From NCBI RefSeq assembly GCF_000423645.1, contig NZ_AUIJ01000012.1, forward strand, positions 1-64,000: DNA of 64,000 nt. The letters run 5' to 3'. This stretch comes from Sediminimonas qiaohouensis DSM 21189. Its GTDB lineage: Bacteria; Pseudomonadota; Alphaproteobacteria; Rhodobacterales; Rhodobacteraceae. Positions 6,713 through 19,163 of this stretch are shown here, one piece after another. The notes below the pieces were generated by a model that saw only the letters and a program-made list of their open reading frames with translations, was not told the DNA's origin and did not search any database. A program made the translations under genes and the position numbers. The number at the start of each line of letters is the position of its first letter. Position 1 is the stretch's first letter.

Positions 6713-8251
6713 ATGAATACATTACAAACAATAGCAACTGCGGCCGCGGTTGCCATAGGGACGGCCACAATGGTCCCGGCCCAGACCCTGAACTTCGCCT
6801 ATGACGCCGATCCGGTATCGCTCGATCCACATGAGCAGCTATCGGGCGGCACCTTGCAGCTGTCACACATGATCTTCGATCCGCTGGTGCGCTGGAACAA
6901 GGATCTGGGCTTTGACGCGCGCCTTGCAGAAAGCTGGGAGCGGATGGACGACACAACGATGCGCTTTCATCTGCGGGATGGCGTGACGTTCCATTCCGGC
7001 AACGAGATGACAGCCGAAGACGTGGTCTGGACCATTGAGCGACTGAAATCTTCTCCCGACTTCAAGGGTGTATTCGCTGGCTGGACCTCGGCCGAGGCCA
7101 TCGACGAGGATACCGTCGAGATCAAGACCGACGGCCCCAGCCCGCTGGTTCTGCACACGGCGACCTACGTGTTCCCGATGGACAAGGAGTTCTACGAGGA
7201 AGGCGGCGCCGAGATCGCCAAACATGGCGACAGTTTCGCCAGTCAGAACGTATCGGGCACCGGCCCCTTCACCATCGTGAGCCGCGAACAGGGCGTGCGC
7301 GTGGTGTTCAAGCGCAACCCCGACTACTGGGACGAAAGCAGCCCGGGCAACGTACAAAAAGCGGTCCTGACCCCGATCAAGGAAGCGCCCACTCGCGTGG
7401 CGGCCCTGCTGTCGGGCGATGTGGATTTCATCGCGCCGGTGCCCCCCACCGACCTGGAGCGGATCAAGAACGACCCCGACACCAAGTTGGTGACAGAGAC
7501 CGGCACGCGCATCATCACGCTGCAACTGAACCAAAAGCGGCATGAGGCGCTGGCCAACCCGAAGGTGCGTCAGGCCATAGCCTATGCCATCAACAACGAA
7601 GGCATCGTGCAGAAAATCATGAAGGGGTTCGGCACCGTCGCGGCGCAGCAATCGCCCAAGGGCTATGTCGGTCACAACCCCGACCTCGAGCCGCGCTATG
7701 ACGTCGCCAAGGCACAGGCGCTGATGGAAGAAGCGGGCTATGCCGACGGGTTCGAGGCCACGATGATGTGCCCCAACAACCGCTACGTGAACGACTTCAA
7801 GATCTGTGAAGCCTCGGCCGCGATGCTGGCCAAGATCGGGATCGAGATCGACCTCACCACCATGCCCAAGGCGCAATACTGGCCCAAGTTCGACGAACGC
7901 GCGGCCGACATCATGATGATCGGCTGGCATTCGGATACCGAGGACAGCGCCAACTTCAACGAGTTCCTGACCATGACCCCGAACCCCGATACCGGGCGCG
8001 GGCAATACAACTCGGGCAACTACTCGAACGCCGAAGTTGACGAGCTGACCATAGCCTCGCTGACCGAAACCGACCCGGAAAAGCGGGCGGAGATGCTGCA
8101 GCGGGTCGAGGAGATCCTTTACAACGAGGCGGCCTTCATCCCCTTCCACTGGCAGGACCTGGCCTGGGGCGCGCGCAAGGGCGTGATGATCGAGGATGTC
8201 GTCAACGTTATGAACTTCCCCTACCTGGGCGATCTTGTGATCAAGCAGTAA
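6713..8251 (+). CDS. Dipeptide/oligopeptide ABC transporter, periplasmic binding protein
   Basis: A 512-residue solute-binding protein of family 5 (DppA/OppA type). It has a signal peptide ending near VPAQ (residue 24) and family motifs VSLDPHE, then RDGVTFHSGNEMTAEDVVWTI (residues about 86-106) and LADSWE-like text (LAESWERMDD). Length is normal. It captures the ligand in the periplasm for the permeases encoded downstream. Ligands of the family include peptides, opines and nickel; the sequence does not decide. It heads a five-gene operon and is followed by a hairpin that could favour its expression over the membrane genes. Confidence 0.9.
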   Translation: MNTLQTIATAAAVAIGTATMVPAQTLNFAYDADPVSLDPHEQLSGGTLQLSHMIFDPLVRWNKDLGFDARLAESWERMDDTTMRFHLRDGVTFHSGNEMTAEDVVWTIERLKSSPDFKGVFAGWTSAEAIDEDTVEIKTDGPSPLVLHTATYVFPMDKEFYEEGGAEIAKHGDSFASQNVSGTGPFTIVSREQGVRVVFKRNPDYWDESSPGNVQKAVLTPIKEAPTRVAALLSGDVDFIAPVPPTDLERIKNDPDTKLVTETGTRIITLQLNQKRHEALANPKVRQAIAYAINNEGIVQKIMKGFGTVAAQQSPKGYVGHNPDLEPRYDVAKAQALMEEAGYADGFEATMMCPNNRYVNDFKICEASAAMLAKIGIEIDLTTMPKAQYWPKFDERAADIMMIGWHSDTEDSANFNEFLTMTPNPDTGRGQYNSGNYSNAEVDELTIASLTETDPEKRAEMLQRVEEILYNEAAFIPFHWQDLAWGARKGVMIEDVVNVMNFPYLGDLVIKQ

Positions 8252-8259
8252 TGTGATAC

Positions 8260-8286
8260 AGGCGGGCCGGTCCACCCGGCCCGCCT
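8260..8286 (+). terminator. Hairpin between binding-protein and permease genes
   Basis: A perfect 11-bp stem (AGGCGGGCCGG / CCGGCCCGCCT) with a 5-base loop lies 9 bases after the stop of the binding-protein gene and 19 bases before the first permease gene. There is no T-run. It is more likely an mRNA-stabilising or attenuating element than a full terminator, giving more binding protein than permease. Confidence 0.7.
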
Positions 8287-8304
8287 GACAAATAGAAAGA
8301 CCCC

Positions 8305-9291
8305 ATGCATATTCTCGCATTCCTCCTTCGTCGCGGCGTTCAGGCTGTCGTCGTGATGTTCGTCATCTCGCTGATCGGGTTTTCCATTCAGGACAACCTC
8401 GGCGATCCGCTGCGCGAATTGCTCGGACAATCCGTGTCCGAAGAGGTCCGCAACGAAATGCGCGAGGAGATGGGGCTGAACGATCCCTTCGTCGTGCAAT
8501 ACATCCGCTTTCTAGGAGACGCGGTACAGGGCGACCTAGGCGATTCCTATTTCTTCAAACGTCCCGCGCTGGGCGTGATCATGGACAAGTTCTCGGCGAC
8601 ATTCGAATTGGTCCTCGGCGCAGTTTTCATCTTTCTTTCGCTATCGATCCCGGCAGGGATTTATTGCGCCATCCACCGCGACAGCCTTGTCACGCGCATC
8701 ATCATGTCGGCCTCCATCATCGGGATTTCGGTTCCTGTTTTCCTGACGGCGATCGGCATGGTTTGGCTTTTCGGCGTGGAACTGGGCTGGTTGCCGGCAT
8801 TCGGTCGCGGCGAAACAGTCGAGATGCCTTGGGGCTGGGATACCGGCCTTCTGACGTGGGACGGCATCAGCCACCTGATCCTGCCCTCGATAACGCTCAG
8901 CTCGATCATGCTGCCGCTTTTCATCCGCCTGATCCGGGCCGAGATGATGGAAACGATGAGCACTGACTACGTCCGCTTTGCCAAGGCAAAGGGGCTCAGC
9001 ACCGCGCGCGTGCGCTATGTGCATGCCTTTCGCAACACGCTGTTGCCGGTGGTCACGGTGGGCGGGCTGATGATCGGCACACTTATCGCCTACACCATCC
9101 TGACCGAAACCGTCTTTCAATGGCCCGGCATGGGGTTCCTGTTCCTTGAGGCGGTAAACCGCGTCGATACCCCCCTGATTATCGCTTATATCATCGTCGT
9201 CGGCCTGATCTTTGTCGTGGTCAACACGCTGGTCGATTTCCTTTACACGCTCATCAACCCGATGGTGAAGCTCCCGGGGGGCAAGTCATGA
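8305..9291 (+). CDS. Peptide-type ABC transporter permease, DppB-like
   Basis: A 328-residue inner-membrane permease of the DppB/OppB group with about six helices. The N-terminus HILAFLLRRGVQAVVVMFV is the usual first helix. The EAA loop contacting the ATPases lies around YVRFAKAKGLSTARVRYVHA (about residues 226-245). Its stop overlaps the ATG of the next permease gene. It forms the channel with the DppC-like protein. ATG 8305 follows the hairpin region after a weak AGAAAGA ribosome site. Confidence 0.9.
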   Translation: MHILAFLLRRGVQAVVVMFVISLIGFSIQDNLGDPLRELLGQSVSEEVRNEMREEMGLNDPFVVQYIRFLGDAVQGDLGDSYFFKRPALGVIMDKFSATFELVLGAVFIFLSLSIPAGIYCAIHRDSLVTRIIMSASIIGISVPVFLTAIGMVWLFGVELGWLPAFGRGETVEMPWGWDTGLLTWDGISHLILPSITLSSIMLPLFIRLIRAEMMETMSTDYVRFAKAKGLSTARVRYVHAFRNTLLPVVTVGGLMIGTLIAYTILTETVFQWPGMGFLFLEAVNRVDTPLIIAYIIVVGLIFVVVNTLVDFLYTLINPMVKLPGGKS

Positions 9292-10196
9292 TCTCACTCA
9301 AGGGCTTCATCACGCGCTTCCTGTCTGATCCGGTTGCCATCGGGGCTGGCTCCGTGCTGCTTATCCTGGTGCTGATGGCGATCCTCGCGCCGTTTCTCGC
9401 ACCGCAGAATCCCTACGACCTGATGCAGCTCGACATCATGGACAGCGAAATGCCCCCCAGCTGGAAACCCGGCGGAGATGAGCGTTTCCTGCTGGGCACC
9501 GATGCACAGGGGCGCGGGGTGCTGTCGACGATCATGTACGGCACCGGCATTTCGCTGCTGATCGGGATCGGTGCAGTGATCGTGCAAGGGGTGCTTGGCG
9601 TCACGCTGGGCCTGATCGCGGGCTATCGCGGCGGCTGGATCGACGCGTTCCTGATGCGGCTGGCGGATATCCAGATGTCGCTTTCCACGCTGATGATCGC
9701 GATCATCGTGCTGGCGATCTTTCAGGCGGCATTCGACGCCAATACATATGCCGATTACGCCATCTTCATGCTGATCGTGATCATCGGCGTGGCGGAATGG
9801 CCGAAATTCGCGCGCACGGTGCGCTCATCCGTTCTGGGCGAGAAGAGCAAGGAATATGTCGATGCCGCCCGGGTGATCGGCCTGCCACCGCGCAAGATCA
9901 TGGTGACACATATCCTGCCCAACACGCTGACGCCGGTGCTTGTCATCTCGACCATCCAGGTGGCCGAGGCGATCATGACCGAGGCCGCGCTGTCGTTTCT
10001 CGGGCTTGGCATGCCCACGGACCGGCCCTCGCTCGGCTCGCTCATCCGATCCGGGTTCGAATTCATCTTCTCTGGCTCATGGTGGATCACGCTTTACCCG
10101 GCCATCGTGCTGGTTGTCCTGATCCTCGCCCTGAACCTGCTGGGCGACTGGTTGCGCGATGTGCTCAATCCGAAACTGCGCCGGGGGGATGACTGA
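9288..10196 (+). CDS. Peptide-type ABC transporter permease, DppC-like
   Basis: A 302-residue permease of the DppC/OppC group. It has the N-terminal DPVAIGAGSVLLILVL helix, the periplasmic segment FLLGTDAQGRGVLSTIMYGTG typical of the family, and an EAA loop around EYVDAARVIGLPPRKIMVTH. The start ATG overlaps the previous stop by four bases, and its own stop shares a base with the ATG of the first ATPase gene (TGATG). It is the second half of the membrane channel. Confidence 0.9.
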   Translation: MISLKGFITRFLSDPVAIGAGSVLLILVLMAILAPFLAPQNPYDLMQLDIMDSEMPPSWKPGGDERFLLGTDAQGRGVLSTIMYGTGISLLIGIGAVIVQGVLGVTLGLIAGYRGGWIDAFLMRLADIQMSLSTLMIAIIVLAIFQAAFDANTYADYAIFMLIVIIGVAEWPKFARTVRSSVLGEKSKEYVDAARVIGLPPRKIMVTHILPNTLTPVLVISTIQVAEAIMTEAALSFLGLGMPTDRPSLGSLIRSGFEFIFSGSWWITLYPAIVLVVLILALNLLGDWLRDVLNPKLRRGDD

Positions 10197-11164
10197 TGGC
10201 GATGCTTGAAATCAAGGACCTGCACGTCGCCTTCCCCAAGGGCAAGAAGTCCGAGGTCGAGGCGCTGCGCGGTGTCAACCTGACGCTTGAAAAAGGCGAG
10301 CGCCTTGGTGTTGTTGGGGAATCCGGCGCCGGAAAATCCATGCTGGCCTTCGCTATTCTGAACCTCATCGCCGAGCCGGGGCGCGTCTCGCAAGGAAGCA
10401 TTGCCTTCCACGGCGAGAACCTCCTGGAGCTTTCCGAACGCGATATCCGCAGTATCCGCGGCAACCGCATCTCGATGATTTTCCAGGACCCGATGGTCAC
10501 GCTCAACCCGGTGCTGTCGATCGGCACACAGATGGTTGAAACGCTCAAGGCGCATCGACGTATATCAGATGCCGAGGCGCGCAAGCTATGCATCGCCAAG
10601 CTCAAGGAGGTCGCGATCCCGTCAGCCGAAAGCCGGCTGGACGCCTACCCGCACGAGCTGTCCGGCGGGCTGCGCCAAAGGGTTGTGATTGCCATTGCGC
10701 TTTTGACCGATCCGGAACTTATCATCGCCGACGAGCCGACAACCGCCCTCGACGTGACCATCCAGGCCGAGATCATGGCCCTGATCCTCAAACTTTGCCG
10801 TGACAAGGATGTGGCCCTGATCCTCATTACCCATGATCTTGGCGTCGTGGCCGAGGTGACCGAGCGGATCATGATCATGTACGCGGGCCTGTGCGTTGAA
10901 ACCGGCGCCACCCAGCAGATCATTCAAGCCCCGCACCACCCCTATTCCGCCGGCCTGTTGAAGGCGCTGCCGCAATTCGCGGGGCGCGGTACGCGGCTGT
11001 ATCAAATCCCGGGGTCGATGCCGCCCATCACGGCGCTGCCACCGGGGTGCGCCTATCATCCGCGCTGCGAACGCGCGACCGATATGTGCAAGGCGCAGAT
11101 CCCTCCGCTCGAACATGGCTGCGCCTGTTTCCACCCGCTCGATCAGACCGAGGCCGCCTCATGA
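10196..11164 (+). CDS. Peptide-type ABC transporter ATPase, DppD-like
   Basis: A 322-residue ATP-binding protein. Walker A is GESGAGKSM (residues about 41-49), the signature is LSGGLRQRV, Walker B is [12 protein letters not shown], and the H-loop is ITHDLGVVAE. The C-terminal oligopeptide-transporter domain has the cysteine cluster CAYHPRCERATDMC...C expected to bind an iron-sulfur cluster in some homologues. It pairs with the following ATPase. Stop and next start overlap by ATGA. Confidence 0.9.
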   Translation: MAMLEIKDLHVAFPKGKKSEVEALRGVNLTLEKGERLGVVGESGAGKSMLAFAILNLIAEPGRVSQGSIAFHGENLLELSERDIRSIRGNRISMIFQDPMVTLNPVLSIGTQMVETLKAHRRISDAEARKLCIAKLKEVAIPSAESRLDAYPHELSGGLRQRVVIAIALLTDPELIIADEPTTALDVTIQAEIMALILKLCRDKDVALILITHDLGVVAEVTERIMIMYAGLCVETGATQQIIQAPHHPYSAGLLKALPQFAGRGTRLYQIPGSMPPITALPPGCAYHPRCERATDMCKAQIPPLEHGCACFHPLDQTEAAS

Positions 11165-12129
11165 CAGACGCCATTGTCGAGACAAAAGGCATCGAGGTCC
11201 GTTTCCCGCTGCCCACCCATTTTTTGGCCAGGGAAAAACCCGTGCTTCATGCGCTCAACGGTGTGGATATCGCGATCCAGCCGGGCGAGTCGTTCTGCGT
11301 CGTGGGCGAATCCGGCTGCGGTAAAACCACACTGGGCCGCACCATCATGGGGCTTCAGTCCCCCACCGCGGGCGAGATATATTTCAACGGCCAACGCATA
11401 GACCAGATGGACGAGGCCGCGCGCAAACCCATCCGCCGCGATATGCAGATGGTGTTTCAAAATCCCTATGCGTCGCTCAACCCGCGCCGCAACGTGTTCG
11501 AAACGCTGGCCGAACCGATCCGCCACCTCATGCCCGAAAAGACGGGCCCGGAGGTGCGCGCGCAGGTCGAAGAGGTGCTTGCCGCCACCGGGTGCGATCC
11601 GTCCTGGCAGCGCAAGCTGCCGCATGAGTTCTCGGGCGGTCAACGACAGCGTATTGCCATCGCCCGCGCGTTGGTGACCAATCCCGCCTTCATCGTCGCG
11701 GACGAGCCGATCTCGGCGCTCGATGTCTCGATCCAGGCGCAGATCCTCAATCTGCTTGATGATTTGCAGGCCGAGCGAGGATTGACCTATCTCTTCATCA
11801 CCCACGACCTGAGCGTGGTCGAACATTTCGGCACCCGCGTCGCGGTGATGTATCTGGGCCGGGTGATGGAACTGGCTGAAACCGACACGCTCTTCTCGGC
11901 GCCCAAGCATCCTTATACAAGGCTGCTGTTGGATGCGATCCCCAAGATCGAAGGTGGCTCTTTCGACAATCCCCGCGAACCGGGTGAGTTGCCCGATCCG
12001 GTCAACATGCCCCCCGGCTGCCCCTTCGCGCCGCGCTGCCCGATGGCAGAAGCGCGATGTCGGACCGAGCGGCCCGAACTGCGCACCCTGGACAACGGCA
12101 CGCAGGCCGCCTGCCATTTCGCGGAGTGA
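11161..12129 (+). CDS. Peptide-type ABC transporter ATPase, DppF-like
   Basis: A 322-residue ATPase with Walker A GESGCGKTTLGR, signature [15 protein letters not shown], Walker B FIVADEPISALDVS and ITHDLSVVEHF. The C-terminal cysteine-rich segment (CPFAPRCPMAEARC) is also present. Start is the ATG at 11161 overlapping the preceding stop; a longer frame to 11047 would run inside the neighbour. It is the last gene of the operon. A weak inverted repeat follows at about 12140-12160. Confidence 0.9.
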   Translation: MTDAIVETKGIEVRFPLPTHFLAREKPVLHALNGVDIAIQPGESFCVVGESGCGKTTLGRTIMGLQSPTAGEIYFNGQRIDQMDEAARKPIRRDMQMVFQNPYASLNPRRNVFETLAEPIRHLMPEKTGPEVRAQVEEVLAATGCDPSWQRKLPHEFSGGQRQRIAIARALVTNPAFIVADEPISALDVSIQAQILNLLDDLQAERGLTYLFITHDLSVVEHFGTRVAVMYLGRVMELAETDTLFSAPKHPYTRLLLDAIPKIEGGSFDNPREPGELPDPVNMPPGCPFAPRCPMAEARCRTERPELRTLDNGTQAACHFAE

Positions 12130-12744: not shown

Positions 12745-13062
12745 ATGACAACGACAAGCCCCAATGCCCGCGCACTGGCCGCCCTTGGCCATGATGCCCG
12801 CCTCTCGATTTTTCGCCTGCTGGTCAAGGCCGGGGAAGACGGCCTGCGCGTCAGCGACATCGGCGCGCATCTGGGTTTTGCACCATCGACGCTGGCGCAT
12901 CACCTGTCGACACTGGTCGATGCGGGCCTTGTGGTGCAGCACAAGGAGGGCCGCGAAGTCCTTAACAAGGCGGACTACCCGGCGATGCAACGCGTGTTGG
13001 GGTTCCTGACCTCGGAATGCTGTACCGGCGTGAGCCTCAGTCCCGAAGGGGACGCGGCCTGA
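12745..13062 (+). CDS. ArsR-family transcriptional regulator
   Basis: A 105-residue winged-helix repressor. It opens with ALAALGHDARLSIFRLLVKAG and has the recognition helix region HLGFAPSTLAHHLSTLVDAG. Near the C-terminus is a vicinal cysteine pair (TSECCTG), similar in place to the DCC motif of the ArsR domain at 3179. The classic ELCVCDL motif is absent, so sensing of As(III)-like ligands through the CC pair is only a suggestion. It lies 58 bases ahead of an ArsP-like permease gene in the same direction and probably controls it. Confidence 0.88.
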   Translation: MTTTSPNARALAALGHDARLSIFRLLVKAGEDGLRVSDIGAHLGFAPSTLAHHLSTLVDAGLVVQHKEGREVLNKADYPAMQRVLGFLTSECCTGVSLSPEGDAA

Positions 13063-13120: not shown

Positions 13121-14167
13121 ATGTCAGATACCAACCTAACCCCTACCGCAGCCGCCGGTTTTGCCCGCTCCTTGTGGCGCGATCACCGCGTATGGCTGGC
13201 TTCGGGGCTGATCCTTGCCGGTGTCGGCGTTGTCGATCCGGGGCAGGCGCGCGATAGCGTGGCCTTCACCGCGACCGCGTTGCTGAACACGGCGCCGTTC
13301 CTGTTGCTGTCTATCCTTGTCGCCGCATGGGCGATGGCAACCGGCGCCGATAACCTGATCGCCAAGGCGTTCACCGGGGCGCCCGCGGTGATGATCTTCA
13401 TGGCGGCGCTGGCTGGCGGGCTGTCTCCGTTCTGTTCCTGCGGGGTTATTCCGCTGATCGCCGCGCTGCTGGCGATGGGCGTGCCGCTGTCGGCGGTCAT
13501 GGCCTTTTGGCTCGCCTCTCCGGTGATGGACCCGTCGATGTTCGTTCTGACGGTCGGGGTGCTGGGCCTGGAATTTGCCATGGCCAAGACGCTGGCGGCC
13601 GTGGGCCTTGGCATTTTCGGCGGTTGGGCGGTTCATCTTCTCGCCCGCGTCGGGGGCTTGTCCGCGCCGCTGCGCGACGGGATCGGCGGCGGTTGCGGCG
13701 GTGGCAAGCTGCGCGAGCCCAAGCCGGTCGTCTGGCGGTTCTGGCAAAGTGCGGACCGGCGCGCGCAATTCGGGCGCGAAGCGCTGAGTGTCGCGCTGTT
13801 CCTGGCAAAGTGGCTGACGCTGGCGTTTCTGCTGGAAAGCCTGATGATGGCCCTCGTCCCCGCCGAAACGGTGACGTCGGTCCTGGGGGGCACGGGGCTT
13901 GGACCGATCGCGCTTGGCACCCTGGTGGGCGTTCCGGCCTATCTCAACGGCTATGCGGCGCTTCCGCTTGTTGGCGGCCTGATCGAGCAGGGCATGGCGC
14001 ATGGCGCGGGGCTTGCCTTTCTCGTGGCGGGCGGCGTTACCTCGCTGCCTGCGGCCATCGCTGTCTGGGCGTTGGTCAAGCCGCGGGTGTTCGTTCTCTA
14101 TCTTGTGCTGTCGCTCTCGGGGGCTTTCGCGGCCGGGCTGCTGTTCCAGCTTTGGATCGTCGCATGA
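13121..14167 (+). CDS. ArsP-like permease (COG0701 family), second copy
   Basis: A 348-residue membrane protein of the same broad family as the permease at 416, with the hallmark FCSCGVIPLIAALLAMG, a later VPAYLNGYAALPLV signature and about eight to ten membrane segments. A glycine/cysteine-rich cytoplasmic loop, GIGGGCGGGK at about residues 188-197, adds a further cysteine and may help hold a thiophilic substrate. It is closer in layout to characterised ArsP than the first copy. An ArsR gene lies directly upstream. The pentaheme cytochrome gene follows in the opposite direction, with stops 14 bases apart. Confidence 0.85.
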   Translation: MSDTNLTPTAAAGFARSLWRDHRVWLASGLILAGVGVVDPGQARDSVAFTATALLNTAPFLLLSILVAAWAMATGADNLIAKAFTGAPAVMIFMAALAGGLSPFCSCGVIPLIAALLAMGVPLSAVMAFWLASPVMDPSMFVLTVGVLGLEFAMAKTLAAVGLGIFGGWAVHLLARVGGLSAPLRDGIGGGCGGGKLREPKPVVWRFWQSADRRAQFGREALSVALFLAKWLTLAFLLESLMMALVPAETVTSVLGGTGLGPIALGTLVGVPAYLNGYAALPLVGGLIEQGMAHGAGLAFLVAGGVTSLPAAIAVWALVKPRVFVLYLVLSLSGAFAAGLLFQLWIVA

Positions 14168-14181
14168 CCACGTCCTGATCG

Positions 14182-15291
14182 TCAGGGACGAGGCCGCCCG
14201 CGCAGGTCCACGTCGATCACTTGCCCGAGGTCCTCAAGGCTGTCGTGAAGCAATTGCAGCAGATAGCGGGGATTGTGCGCGAACCCGCCGGGGTCCTTCT
14301 TGACCATTTGGTAATTGTAGGCGGCCCTGAGCAGACGCGGCGTCCAGGATTGATAGCGGTTGGGATAGCCGCCCTCGTCCGGGCCGATCCGCCCGTCGCC
14401 ATCGGCGTCGGCAAAGAAATAGGGGTATTGCCCCGGCGCATAGGCAATCGGGACACCGATGCTTTGGGCGGCATAGGTGCGGATCGCGGCCTCCAGCTGT
14501 TTGTGCAGCCCAACGATTTCCTCGTGAATGCCGCCCGATATATCGCCGTCGCCGTCGAAATCATCGTGCTGGGTGCGTATGTCGCGGACGGTATCGACGC
14601 CGCGATGGCAGCTCAGGCATCCGTCGGGATCCACCTGTGTGCTGTGCGGATCGTGGCAGGCGGTGCAACTGCTGGCGCTGGGGACATGGGCAAAACGCCC
14701 GGCATAATCCTTGCCGGGATAGTGATAGCCGCCGCGCACCTCCGCGCCGCCCATCACCGCTGCGGCAACTGCGTAATGGATATTGATAAACTGCAGGTCG
14801 GCCGAGACGGTGTCGGCATCGATCCCGGTTGCCGCGCTATCGACATCTTCGCCCGATTGCCGGCCACTGTGACAGACCGTGCAAACGGCTGACGCGTCCA
14901 GCCCGCCAACCGAGGCCCCGGATGGGAACGTGACGCTATCCAACGCCTGGGCCGCCTCGTTATGGCACGATGCGCAGCCAATGGGTGCATTGATGGCTGC
15001 GGCGTGGTCGATCACACCGGGTTGCGATTCGTCCGCGCCCAGGTAGTCCAGGAACCCGGGCTGCGAATGGCAAGCGGCGCAATCGGGCGGCACGGCGCCG
15101 TCCTTGTTCCAGTAGGTGAAGGCCAAGGCGCCGTAATCGCTATGGGGGGCGCTCAGCCAATCATGCACGATCGCGGGTAGCTCACCCTTGTCCGGAGACG
15201 ACGTGCTTTGCTGCGCCAATGTCCCGGCAGGGGTGAAACCCCAGGCAAACAGTATCATGACGATGGTCAGGGCCAAGTGGCGCGGTGTCAT
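14182..15291 (-). CDS. Periplasmic pentaheme c-type cytochrome
   Basis: A 369-residue exported protein with signal peptide (about residues 1-26) and five CxxCH heme-attachment sites: CAACH, CASCH, CTVCH, CTACH and CLSCH, all in the first two-thirds. Two aspartate-rich loops resembling EF-hands follow, DFDGDGDISGG and DADGDGRIGPDEGG, which suggests calcium binding. The protein could act as an electron carrier or reductase outside the inner membrane. Ribosome site GAGGG precedes ATG 15291. It is transcribed divergently from the transmembrane flavoprotein gene at 15430, sharing a 138-base promoter region, so the two are likely partners. I do not recognise a named family. Confidence 0.85.
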   Translation of the reverse strand: MTPRHLALTIVMILFAWGFTPAGTLAQQSTSSPDKGELPAIVHDWLSAPHSDYGALAFTYWNKDGAVPPDCAACHSQPGFLDYLGADESQPGVIDHAAAINAPIGCASCHNEAAQALDSVTFPSGASVGGLDASAVCTVCHSGRQSGEDVDSAATGIDADTVSADLQFINIHYAVAAAVMGGAEVRGGYHYPGKDYAGRFAHVPSASSCTACHDPHSTQVDPDGCLSCHRGVDTVRDIRTQHDDFDGDGDISGGIHEEIVGLHKQLEAAIRTYAAQSIGVPIAYAPGQYPYFFADADGDGRIGPDEGGYPNRYQSWTPRLLRAAYNYQMVKKDPGGFAHNPRYLLQLLHDSLEDLGQVIDVDLRGRPRP

Positions 15292-15429
15292 CTTGAATTC
15301 CCTCGCTCATATCGAAGTTGCCTTATAGGAAAGCATACCACACATTTTCCCCGTCTCCATTGCGCAGGATCAACGCACGGACGACAAATGCAGCTCAGTG
15401 TGCGACGGCAAACCGGAGGTATACCAACG

Positions 15430-16899
15430 ATGGCCACGCGGACCCAATCGCAAGAGCTTCGGCCAACCGATGACTGGCCGGTGTTTTCGGCGCGTGCGAT
15501 GGCTGCGGCTTACCTGTTGGTCTGTTTGCTGCCGCTGGCATTGGCGGGGGTCTCGCGAAGTGCGCCGCTGGACCCCATTGAGGCGATCGGCGCGGGGCTG
15601 GGCCTGTCGGGCATGGCCGCCATGGTGGTGCAGGTGGTGACCTCGGGGCGGTTTCGGCATGTCTCTGGCGGCATGGGAATCGACCGGATCATGGCATTTC
15701 ACAAGATCGCCGCGTACTGGGTTCTGCTGGTGCTGCTGCTGCATCCCCTGGCCTATGTCCTGCCGACATTTCTGGACGATCCCGCGCGCGGTGTTGAGCG
15801 GTTGCGCGCCTACCTGCTCCTTCCCGACTACCGGACTGGTGTTGCCGCGCTGCTGGCGCTGGTGGTTCTGGTCGTGATGGGCGTGGCGCGCGCAGTGTTC
15901 AGATACGAGGCATGGCGCGGCAGCCACGTCATCCTGGCGCTGATAGTGCTGAGCGCCGGGATGCATCACGCGCTGACCGTCGGACGGCTGAGCAGCATCG
16001 GCCCATTGCATTGGGCCTGGTGGGCGGCGGCCGGGGTTGTGGTGGCAGCCTTTGCCGTGCTTTACGGCTGGCGTTGGTTCGCTCTGCTCCGCCGACCCTG
16101 GCGCCTGCACGCGGTCAACAAGAAGGCCGACCGCACCTGGGAGCTTGATATCGAGCCCGTGCCGGGCACCTCGCCGCTGCGCTACCGGGCCGGGCAATTC
16201 GTCTGGATGACCGAGGGCGCGCGCCGCTTTCCCCTGTTCGATCATCCCTTTTCGATCGCAAGCAGCCCGCAGCGCGAGCAACTCAACCTGATCATCAAGG
16301 AGGCCGGGGATTTCACCCGAAAGATCGGCGATCTGGCGCCCGGCACGCTGATCGGGATCGATGGCCCCTATGGCACCTTCACGCTTGACCGTCATCACGG
16401 CGATCACGTCGTGCTTATCGCGGGCGGGGTGGGCATTGCGCCGATCATGGGATTGCTGCGCGATCTGGTCGCCCGGCGCGATCCGCGCCCGGTTCGCGTT
16501 GCCTATGCCGCCGGCCGCCCCGAGAACATGGCCTGCCTTGACGAGATCGAGGCGGCGAAAACGGTGCTGGACCTCAAGGTGATGCTGATCAGCGAAGAAC
16601 CGGCCGAGGGATGGACAAACCCGACAGGCCTGCTTGACCGTGGAAAGCTGACCGAGCTTCTTGGCGGGCTTGATCCGGAACGGACGGTGGTCCTCATGTG
16701 CGGGCCGGGCGCCATGGTGACGCAGGTCTCGGATATGCTGCTGGACGTGGGGGTGCCGATGAACGGCATCGTCTACGAGCGGTTCGACTACGGCGGCGGC
16801 CTGTCCGCACGGCAGGACCGTCAACGCACGCACGCGTTTCTTGGCCTGTTCATGGTGTTGAGCGTATCCGTCATAGGGTTGTCGGTGTTGCTCTTCTGA
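15430..16899 (+). CDS. Ferric-reductase-like transmembrane flavocytochrome
   Basis: A 489-residue membrane oxidoreductase of the NADPH-oxidase/ferric-reductase superfamily. The first ~220 residues form about six helices with histidines on two of them (HKIAAYWVLLVLLLHPLAY; GSHVILALIVLSAGMHHAL), positions suited to two b-hemes. From about 225 on is a ferredoxin-reductase module: FAD motif around PFSIASSP, NAD(P)-binding GGVGIAPIMGLLRDL and the end motif LMCGPGAM. Unusually, one more hydrophobic helix sits at the very C-terminus. A strong GGAGG precedes the ATG at 15430; a longer frame from 15208 would overlap the divergent gene. It would carry electrons from NAD(P)H across the membrane. Confidence 0.88.
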   Translation: MATRTQSQELRPTDDWPVFSARAMAAAYLLVCLLPLALAGVSRSAPLDPIEAIGAGLGLSGMAAMVVQVVTSGRFRHVSGGMGIDRIMAFHKIAAYWVLLVLLLHPLAYVLPTFLDDPARGVERLRAYLLLPDYRTGVAALLALVVLVVMGVARAVFRYEAWRGSHVILALIVLSAGMHHALTVGRLSSIGPLHWAWWAAAGVVVAAFAVLYGWRWFALLRRPWRLHAVNKKADRTWELDIEPVPGTSPLRYRAGQFVWMTEGARRFPLFDHPFSIASSPQREQLNLIIKEAGDFTRKIGDLAPGTLIGIDGPYGTFTLDRHHGDHVVLIAGGVGIAPIMGLLRDLVARRDPRPVRVAYAAGRPENMACLDEIEAAKTVLDLKVMLISEEPAEGWTNPTGLLDRGKLTELLGGLDPERTVVLMCGPGAMVTQVSDMLLDVGVPMNGIVYERFDYGGGLSARQDRQRTHAFLGLFMVLSVSVIGLSVLLF

Positions 16900-16932: not shown

Positions 16933-17778
16933 ATGAAATTCGTAGTGGCGCTGGCTATCGTGTTGGCTGTCGTTTTGGCTGGCCTGATCTGGCTTGCGCT
17001 ATACGACAAACGCGCCGATGCGGCGGAATGGCGGCGTTTGGCCGCGCTTCAACCCGAAGATCCCCGGCGCTTTTCCGACTCCATGGTCGCGGACCTGCCA
17101 GAGCCGGCCCGGCGATACTTCGGCTACACCATCGCGCCCGGCACGCCGCTCTTGCCGGTTGTCCAGATCGACATGACCGGGCGGTTCAGCCTCGGAACAA
17201 AGGACGATCCGCGCTATCAGCCCATGCAAGCACGCCAGATCCTTGCCGTGCCCGAGGGGTTCGTCTGGTCGATGCGAACGCTTGGTGGACTGCCGCTATC
17301 GGGGTCGGATACCGGGCGCTGGACCCGCTTTCGCATGCTCTGGCTGATCCCGGTCGCGCGAATGGGCGGCACGTCCGATCACGAAAGATCGGCCTTTGGC
17401 CGGTACGTGGCCGAGGCGGCGTTCTGGTCCCCCGCCGCGCTGCTGCCGGGGCCGGGGATCACATGGGCGCCCGTGGATGGCGACACCGCCCGCGTCACCG
17501 TCAGCCACGAGGCGCTGACGCAATCCGTTGATATCACCGTCGATACTGAAGGGCGGCCCGTTCAAGTAGCGTTTCAGCGCTGGAGCAACGCGAACCCGCA
17601 AAAGGTGCACCGGTTGCAGCCGTTCGGCGGATACCTCTCGGACTTCCGCAAGGTTGGCGGCTACCGCCTTGCCCACCGGGTCGAGGCGGGCAACATGTTC
17701 GGCACCGACGACTATTTTCCGTTCTTCATGGCCGACATCAGCGCGATCCGGTTCCCCGGCAGCCATGACGCGCCCTGA
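16933..17778 (+). CDS. Membrane-anchored DUF6544-like protein
   Basis: A 281-residue protein with one N-terminal membrane helix (about residues 3-25) followed by a soluble, probably periplasmic domain. The text PEPARRYFGYTIAPGTPLLP and later YLSDFRKVGGYRLAHRVEAGN matches what I recall of the uncharacterised DUF6544 (formerly DUF6920) family. No catalytic motif is evident. It begins 34 bases after the flavocytochrome gene with its own GGAGGC ribosome site, so the two are probably co-transcribed. It ends tail to tail with the second MBL gene. Confidence 0.7.
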   Translation: MKFVVALAIVLAVVLAGLIWLALYDKRADAAEWRRLAALQPEDPRRFSDSMVADLPEPARRYFGYTIAPGTPLLPVVQIDMTGRFSLGTKDDPRYQPMQARQILAVPEGFVWSMRTLGGLPLSGSDTGRWTRFRMLWLIPVARMGGTSDHERSAFGRYVAEAAFWSPAALLPGPGITWAPVDGDTARVTVSHEALTQSVDITVDTEGRPVQVAFQRWSNANPQKVHRLQPFGGYLSDFRKVGGYRLAHRVEAGNMFGTDDYFPFFMADISAIRFPGSHDAP

Positions 17779-17804: not shown

Positions 17805-18758
17805 CTATTCCCACTCCATCTGTTCATAGGTGGTTTGCGCGTTGCGCCCCGCCAGGCTGTCGAACTGCGCCAAATAGGAAAAGGCCGTCTGGTCCACCTT
17901 CGGTGCCTGCATGATGTCGCCGCCCTCGTCTATCAGGGTGCCGATCCGGGTGCGCAGGTTCACCAGGTAGTCGTAGGTGTCGCGGCGTGCCTGCTCAAGC
18001 GTCGTGGCAGGGCCGTGCCCCGGCACAACATGGGCGGGGGCATATGCCGCCATCGCTTCGAAGGCCTTGATCCAGCTCCGAACATTGGATTGGCTGCCGA
18101 CCCCCAGTATGCGCTGGACATAGACGATGTCCCCGGTGAACATCACGCTGCGATCTTTCAGCCAGACGAAACTGTCGCCGGGCGTGTGCGCCTGGCCGCG
18201 ATGCATGATCTCGAAGGTGAAACCGCCGACATCAAGCGAATGATCGGTGTCAAAGGTGACATCGGCATAGGCCGGCTCGGTCCCGTCCAACCCGTCCCCG
18301 ATCAATTGCGCCAGCGCCGTCATCTGCATCGAGCCACGATCCTTGTGATCGGCAACCGCCGCCTCGGACGCGATCACGGTCGCGCCCTGCGCCTGCCAAT
18401 ATCCGTTGCCAAGCCAGCGGTGATCCTGCCCGCCGGTGTTGATGACATAGGTCACGGGCTTGTCGGTGATTGTGTCAATGGCGGTGTCGATCATCTTGGC
18501 CCCCTTCCACGATCCGCCCGGATCGATCAACACGACGCCCGCGCCGGTGACGACCACGCCAAACGTGGCGTTGTTGCCAAGGTTCGCTGGATCGCGCTGC
18601 GTCATCGGGCCGACCAGAGCCCAAACGTCTTTGGTGACGGCTTGGATTTCAAGAGTACCCGCATGCGCCGCCCGTGGCACGGCGGCCGCGACGGCGCAGG
18701 CGACCAGGACCATAAAGGCACCTAGACGCCCGGCGGTGGCAGTCAGTCGTGTTTGCAT
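17805..18758 (-). CDS. Periplasmic MBL-fold hydrolase with TGGQDH motif, second copy
   Basis: A 317-residue paralogue of the protein at 1728, with long identical stretches such as NTGGQDHRWLGNGYWQAQG, QAHTPGDSFVWL, VMFTGDIVYV and the tail YEQMEWE. By eye about two-thirds of residues match. It has the same loss of the first two zinc histidines and a signal peptide ending near RAAHA. The ATG at 18758 is preceded by GGGAAGGG at good spacing; an upstream GTG at 18785 is less likely. It lies at the end of the locus with ArsR, ArsP-like permease, pentaheme cytochrome and flavocytochrome. Confidence 0.85.
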   Translation of the reverse strand: MQTRLTATAGRLGAFMVLVACAVAAAVPRAAHAGTLEIQAVTKDVWALVGPMTQRDPANLGNNATFGVVVTGAGVVLIDPGGSWKGAKMIDTAIDTITDKPVTYVINTGGQDHRWLGNGYWQAQGATVIASEAAVADHKDRGSMQMTALAQLIGDGLDGTEPAYADVTFDTDHSLDVGGFTFEIMHRGQAHTPGDSFVWLKDRSVMFTGDIVYVQRILGVGSQSNVRSWIKAFEAMAAYAPAHVVPGHGPATTLEQARRDTYDYLVNLRTRIGTLIDEGGDIMQAPKVDQTAFSYLAQFDSLAGRNAQTTYEQMEWE

Positions 18759-19163
18759 GGTCGCACCCTTCCCTGTGTTCCCCACATCTCATATGCGCCA
18801 TAATCGATGTGATCGAAATGTGCCCTGCCGTCGCAGGGGCCCGGCGCGCGGTTGACCCGCCGCGCGCCCCCGCCTTGGGCCGGCACTGTACGAATCGCAC
18901 ATCTCACGCCGCGAAACGTCCGTTTGCGCGCAAGCGCCAATCGTTGCCCGACCGTGCGGCGTGGTAACGATCACGCCGGTTTCGTGAGAACAGCGCCGTG
19001 CAAGACGGCGATTCCGCGGTCGATCGAATGGGCGACGAGGCTGCGTTGGCGATGTCACACCCGGTCAAGCTGACTTTGAGGCGCGGCCGGGAGAATGTTG
19101 TTTTCATGCGCTTTTTCTCGCGGCGTTTGCATCGGCGCCCCGAATAGAAGGGCGCTGGCCGGA
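18759..19163. other. Intergenic region, about 400 bases
   Basis: The region upstream of the second MBL gene shows no recognisable gene. A 9-bp GC-rich hairpin (GGCGCGCGG / CCGCGCGCC, 18843-18868) is the only clear structure. The right part borders a decayed gene region, and short open frames there look like debris. Confidence 0.45.

Follow-up and report, generated by a model that had tools for sequence, protein, structure and literature searches.

A probable NAD(P)H-to-pentaheme-cytochrome electron conduit in Sediminimonas qiaohouensis and its modified Nqr counterpart in relatives

Bacterial NADPH oxidases (NOX) such as SpNOX consist of a six-helix bis-heme core and a FAD/NAD(P)H domain (PMC5676040, PMC11031084). 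With the observation that SpNOX reduces cytochrome c directly under argon, it was asked explicitly which acceptor most bacterial NOX-like flavocytochromes use physiologically (PMC5676040). Here we describe a locus of Sediminimonas qiaohouensis DSM 21189 (contig NZ_AUIJ01000012.1; 3.55-Mb genome in 67 contigs) in which a single-chain membrane flavocytochrome of the same build, termed FRE, is encoded divergently from a secreted pentaheme c-type cytochrome, termed CYT. All positions are those of the 64,000-nt stretch that was analyzed, referred to as the window. Unlike SpNOX, FRE has an additional helix at its C-terminus, and its gene constantly accompanies that of the secreted pentaheme cytochrome. 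Judging from sequence and gene order, CYT and FRE probably form an NAD(P)H:multiheme-cytochrome electron-export conduit. With a fixed secreted partner for this clade of NOX-like proteins, the acceptor question becomes a simple two-protein assay.

In relatives, CYT stands beside a modified Nqr. The closest described case, in which a redox pump of the Rnf/Nqr kind is joined to a multiheme c-type outlet, is Rnf–MmcA of Methanosarcina acetivorans (PMC11024163, PMC12174285); that system is archaeal and ferredoxin-driven, whereas the cytochrome described here faces either an NADH-driven Nqr with a deleted NqrB-FMN segment (in relatives) or the pumpless FRE (in the window). NqrB-type subunits that lack the flavinylation site, like the one in these relatives, are also found in two-gene Nqr/Rnf-like flavinylation systems, for which a one-way flow from NAD(P)H to extracytosolic FMN was proposed (PMC8238504, PMC11334425). 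Those systems comprise a fused NqrB–NqrF-type protein and an FMN protein, whereas the relatives discussed here retain all six nqr genes, to which the pentaheme cytochrome is added. Two-gene systems are known to have lost the flavin site of NqrB (PMC11334425); in the open-access literature we found no description of such a loss in a six-gene Nqr with a cytochrome, nor of a truncated Nqr paired with a multiheme cytochrome.

Two H-x13-H pairs on transmembrane helices (TM) 3 and 5, with multiheme cytochromes nearby, are shared by FRE and the PCC3/PCC4 clusters of neutrophilic Fe(II) oxidizers (PMC5566968), whose inner-membrane proteins, unlike FRE, have five helices and are proposed to be quinone-active parts of a porin-cytochrome conduit. 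The modified Nqr of the relatives is the most novel part of the system described here, which is otherwise a variant of NOX-like flavocytochromes and of electron export from Nqr/Rnf to multiheme cytochromes. MsrQ has no FAD/NAD domain and MsrP is a molybdoenzyme, and both differ in this from the present pair. What MsrQ–MsrP and FRE–CYT have in common is a ferric-reductase-fold heme protein that feeds, or in our case would feed, a periplasmic redox protein (discussed in PMC5676040).

The flavocytochrome and the pentaheme cytochrome

CYT (369 aa) occupies 14182..15291 on the minus strand and FRE (489 aa) 15430..16899 on the plus strand, separated by a divergent promoter region of 138 bases (15292..15429). 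A preliminary description, made from the sequence of the window, had read this arrangement as a secreted five-heme cytochrome divergent from a membrane flavoprotein, and the coordinates and motifs bear it out. The open frame of FRE begins at 15208 with a TTG codon, which is a possible start without support from relatives; the ATG at 15430 is the start that fits the homologs.

Three Pfam domains of FRE scored over their cut-offs (Ferric_reduct, 49.7 bits; FAD_binding_8, 35.5; NAD_binding_1, 56.5), and the best matches among solved structures were entries 8qt6, 8qq7 and 8qta, which we take to be those of the Streptococcus pneumoniae NADPH oxidase. Hydropathy analysis gave six core helices and one beyond the NAD domain. 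Heme ligands H91 and H105 on TM3 (15700..15744, plus strand) and H166 and H180 on TM5 (15925..15969, plus strand), each pair spaced H-x13-H, were kept in 24 of 24 homologs, so that at the level of sequence the two-heme-type helices proposed earlier hold and the objection that these histidines might be missing falls away. The FAD motif HPFSI (residues 272–276; 16243..16257, plus strand) and the NAD(P)-binding domain (NAD_binding_1; residues 329–434; 16414..16731, plus strand), with GVGIAP at residues 333–338, follow. In these motifs, in histidine spacing and in helix number, FRE passes the bacterial NOX filters of PMC5676040, namely H[PSA]F[TS][LIMV], two H-X12/14-H heme pairs and at least 3 but at most 7 predicted helices. 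The extra C-terminal hydrophobic helix (residues about 470–488; 16837..16893, plus strand), recognized by hydropathy and homolog comparison, was shared by the 12 CYT-linked FREs without exception and by an unlinked relative of 43% identity (G199, locus L106), in whose genome a CYT gene lies on a different contig. The remaining 11 far homologs stop before this helix.

The N-terminus of CYT is a Sec-type signal, MTPRHLALTIVMILFAWGFTPAGTLAQQ, and the protein contains exactly five CXXCH motifs, which start at residues 71, 106, 137, 209 and 225. These are, on the minus strand, CAACH (residues 71–75; 15067..15081), found in all intact homologs, CASCH (106–110; 14962..14976), CTVCH (137–141; 14869..14883), CTACH (209–213; 14653..14667) and CLSCH (225–229; 14605..14619). 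Matches to Cytochrome_C7 (38.1 bits, cut-off 24.8) and Cytochrom_c3_2 (30.5 bits, cut-off 25), which cover only part of the protein, place CYT among the cytochrome c7/c3-like multiheme carriers. In addition to the five proximal histidines, six others are conserved (residues 50, 60, 172, 202, 216 and 339); as these suffice for five bis-histidine hemes, a carrier is more fitting than a catalyst, and all hemes are probably bis-histidine ligated. A C-terminal HNP stretch had raised the possibility of catalysis like that of the NrfA-type pentaheme nitrite reductase, which was dropped since CYT has no CXXCK motif and has enough extra histidines for all of its hemes; its Cytochrom_C552 score was 20.7 bits against a cut-off of 24.1. 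A TorC/DorC or NapC-type assignment was also rejected, there being no NapC_NirT match in Pfam or NCBIfam and the N-terminus being signal-peptide-like rather than a membrane anchor.

Partners of the cytochrome across the family

Related contigs, such as those of Celeribacter, Sulfitobacter and Vannielia, suggest a place for the window in the Rhodobacteraceae/Paracoccaceae. We surveyed one genome per genus in 248 genera of the family. CYT homologs were present in 39 genera. Close FREs (56–62% identity, E below 1e-159) occurred in 10 genera, among them that of the window, and all ten were divergent neighbors of CYT (Fisher p=3e-9 over the 248 genera), whereas far FRE homologs without the C-terminal helix had no CYT adjoining. 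The same arrangement was repeated in a second genome of the genus represented by G235 (G906, L117) and in a same-genus genome of Sediminimonas (G979, L129), where the gap measures 137 bases and DNA identity to the window is 76%. Between the latter and the window, change amounted to 0.38–0.40 at third codon positions versus 0.13–0.17 at positions 1 and 2, a pattern as under purifying selection, and the identities of CYT and FRE correlated over 12 loci (r=0.77). Because the pairing is kept in nine other genera of the 248 and in the same-genus genome, it is not due to chance, and the conserved co-occurrence that the preliminary description had proposed as a check was found; the two genes cannot be said to occur together rarely. 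CYT and FRE were the only gene families that recurred as a rule across FRE-type loci of different genera, and among these loci no acceptor gene recurred near the pair.

The CYT homologs of other genera have a second kind of partner. In 24 other genomes with examined loci, and in G116 as judged by coordinates, nqrA is divergent from CYT and opens an operon that continues, in order, with nqrB to nqrF and apbE. A six-subunit Nqr or a single FRE stands beside CYT in 34 of the 39 CYT genomes, and one genome (G047) carries both arrangements on different contigs. All six subunits, NqrA–F, and ApbE were recognized in the operon of L082, and the order recurs in annotated plasmids of Nitratireductor sp. 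OM-1 (where an nqrM gene is also present), Shinella sp. HZN7, Pseudooceanicola algae and Paracoccus seriniphilus. In L082, NqrC to NqrF scored over curated NCBIfam (TIGR) cut-offs, NqrA reached 296.8 bits versus a cut-off of 321, and the ApbE match is partial because the examined stretch ends within that gene. Operons of this kind lie divergent from CYT in L064–L068, L079–L105 and L143–L146, some of them on plasmids, and the annotation pipeline calls their NqrB RnfD. Annotation pipelines label such loci only as an ordinary Nqr and 'cytochrome C'.

The NqrB of CYT-linked operons has about 260 residues, compared with about 405 as usual. When aligned with four full-length Nqr loci of this bacterial family, every short NqrB proved to lack a stretch of 44 residues in which the SGAT flavinylation motif and the GETS segment lie, and a short NqrB scored 81.6 bits against a cut-off of 349.9 for the full-length protein with its covalent FMN site. 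Nearly all short Nqrs keep the Fe-S cysteines of NqrF (84, 90, 93 and 125), the cysteines of NqrD and NqrE and the NqrC motif DG[IL][ST]GATxT. In Na+-NQR, electrons pass from NADH through NqrF, NqrD/E, NqrC and NqrB to quinone. Deletion of the NqrB FMN segment would cut this path short at the periplasmic NqrC FMN, and we infer that CYT is the replacement acceptor for electrons leaving that FMN. Short NqrB was found in 34 of the 248 genomes, and 26 of these also carry CYT (p=8e-19). For full-length NqrB/RnfD, with 42 genomes of which four carry CYT, there was no association (p=0.35). No multiheme cytochrome adjoined the full-length Nqr in the four loci read, all from CYT-bearing genomes, the divergent gene being apbE where it was seen.

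Some short-Nqr operons of genomes without CYT have other genes in the divergent slot, encoding a secreted small tetraheme c3-type cytochrome in G012 and, in G108, an EB_dh-domain protein that contains a CXXCH motif (L131:1169-1510; L132:1367-2752). The CYT gene beside the short Nqr of G013 (L104:6036-6542) is seemingly broken by a stop codon. An antiporter-like gene adjoins CYT in 11 loci.

A tree of 47 CYT rows placed the FRE-linked cytochromes in a single clade (support 100/99), nested among the Nqr-linked ones and made up of 12 FRE-linked members and that of G199, whose FRE relative is unlinked. Four partner labels required 5 changes on this tree versus 15.6 in shuffles. A single nested clade points to one exchange of Nqr for FRE; the window's clade apparently swapped its NADH-oxidizing Nqr module, once, for a single NOX-like flavocytochrome. 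Consistent with one exchange, eight of the ten FRE-type genomes have no NQR2_RnfD (NqrB/RnfD family) protein, and in the exceptions the match is the short Nqr beside the second CYT (G047) or a full-length Nqr elsewhere (G011). We lean towards the view that these loci represent an undescribed alphaproteobacterial NADH:multiheme-cytochrome oxidoreductase, in which an Nqr without the FMN segment exits at NqrC onto the pentaheme cytochrome, and which in the lineage of the window was replaced by a NOX-like flavocytochrome with a c-type cytochrome, not oxygen, as its natural acceptor. Through such loci, some of them on plasmids, NADH electrons would gain a further exit that does not depend on quinone, and the replacement of a six-subunit Nqr by one protein with the cytochrome kept would be a natural experiment on rewiring Nqr from quinone to a periplasmic cytochrome and on sodium pumping.

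These distributions also bear on whether FRE is a bacterial NADPH oxidase that makes periplasmic superoxide, with CYT as a scavenger or an incidental neighbor. FRE does pass the NOX filters, in HPFSI, GVGIAP and both H-x13-H pairs, and its best solved matches are NOX-type. Nevertheless, CYT homologs are arranged in the same way with Nqr, which is no dedicated superoxide-making oxidase, and linkage to CYT is complete among close FREs and absent beside the far homologs that lack the C-terminal helix. We regard a superoxide-making role as improbable.

Electron path, regulation and contrary observations

According to the proposed conduit, FRE would move electrons from cytosolic NAD(P)H onto FAD and from there, through the inner and outer b-hemes held by H91, H105, H166 and H180, to its periplasmic face. 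We infer an outward flow and direct contact between the two proteins, by which FRE would hand the electrons to CYT as a soluble periplasmic pentaheme carrier, and CYT would pass them to a periplasmic acceptor encoded elsewhere. In relatives, the modified Nqr would feed CYT by a path ending at the periplasmic NqrC FMN, the FRE module being a simplified version for which energy conservation is not expected.

We compared the Crp/Fnr-family palindrome TTGAYN4RTCAA with the divergent promoters of 37 loci, using dinucleotide shuffles as control. Copies with 0–1 mismatch were present in 23 of the 37 promoters versus 0.7 expected in shuffles. Exact copies precede CYT in Shinella, Pseudooceanicola and Defluviimonas, and the same-genus relative has a 1-mismatch box at the position matching that of the window. 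CYT loci do not have the box to themselves, as a copy with 1 mismatch also lies in one of four control promoters of full-length Nqr. Expression, in this strain as in relatives, is probably under a Crp/Fnr-family regulator, with low-oxygen or nitrogen-oxide (NO) control, and the module is thus likely to serve for disposing of reducing power, or respiring it, when oxygen is low or nitrogen oxides are present. A link to nitrate respiration, assessed through NapA, did not emerge, as NapA was not enriched (5 of 37 CYT genomes versus 10 of 38 others, p=0.25), and the genome of the window has no NapA over cut-off.

Electrons might instead run inward, with a periplasmic donor supplying CYT and with NAD+ being reduced by FRE or the short Nqr. 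Multiheme cytochromes are able to run both ways and relatives of Nqr/Rnf are reversible in principle. However, NOX-type flavocytochromes are known as NAD(P)H oxidizers, FRE has no ion-pumping parts for uphill NAD+ reduction, and the Crp/Fnr-type boxes fit a reductive, low-oxygen role, all of which makes this direction very unlikely.

As a further possibility, CYT could be a free carrier in the periplasm that receives most of its electrons from quinol cytochromes b, with FRE and Nqr as a supplement. In G007 (L091:3563-7249), genes for an octaheme tetrathionate-reductase-family cytochrome and for a PhsC-like cytochrome b follow that of CYT on its strand, which also hints at an ability of CYT to supply electrons to a periplasmic reductase. 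The CYT of a Defluviimonas plasmid likewise lies near PepSY, cytochrome b and ApbE genes; in this locus (L142:6464-17099), which also has a DUF2271 gene, CYT stands between two two-component systems. Against this, an NAD(P)H-oxidizing module adjoins CYT in the 34 genomes given above and no cytochrome b gene recurs, and we see little chance that quinol is the main source.

The export conduit from NAD(P)H to CYT has strong indirect support in the conserved pair, the heme ligands and the CYT homologs facing a modified Nqr, and this part of the preliminary description stands. Several observations weigh against it. Neither partner is beside CYT in 4 of the 39 CYT genomes (G007, G087, G119 and G199), so that CYT may have other donors, and eight short-Nqr genomes are without CYT. 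The Crp/Fnr-type box of the window itself, TTGCGCAGGATCAA (15360..15373), is degenerate, its two mismatches being near chance when taken alone. AlphaFold2 models were of low confidence, with a predicted local distance difference test score (pLDDT) of 48 for CYT (seven sequences) and 47 for FRE alone, although the helices of the latter agree with six plus one.

Neighboring genes and the arsenic link

Directly upstream of the pair lie genes for an ArsR-family regulator (12745-13062) and an ArsP-type permease (13121-14167), an order kept in the same-genus L129. On these grounds the preliminary description had placed the module in an ArsR/ArsP-type locus and considered reduction of a metal(loid), and the position of the two genes would suit a module that reduces a metal(loid) or ferric iron in connection with them. 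The linkage ends at the genus, since ArsR/ArsP genes stood beside the pair in none of the other genera with CYT–FRE or CYT–Nqr examined, and the permease scored far below the curated cut-offs for SO_0444 (Cu/Zn) and SaoE. This role is not supported and appears highly improbable.

A DUF6544/DUF6920 protein is encoded directly downstream of FRE (16933-17778), in an order kept in L129 and not in other genera. Peptide-type ABC transporter genes near CYT–FRE, both in the window (6713-12129) and in L071, are possibly a coincidence. At 17805-18785, the window encodes a metallo-beta-lactamase-fold protein with a signal-like N-terminus, whose nearest families, with scores below cut-off, are the SoxH-related pyrroloquinoline quinone (PQQ) relay families.

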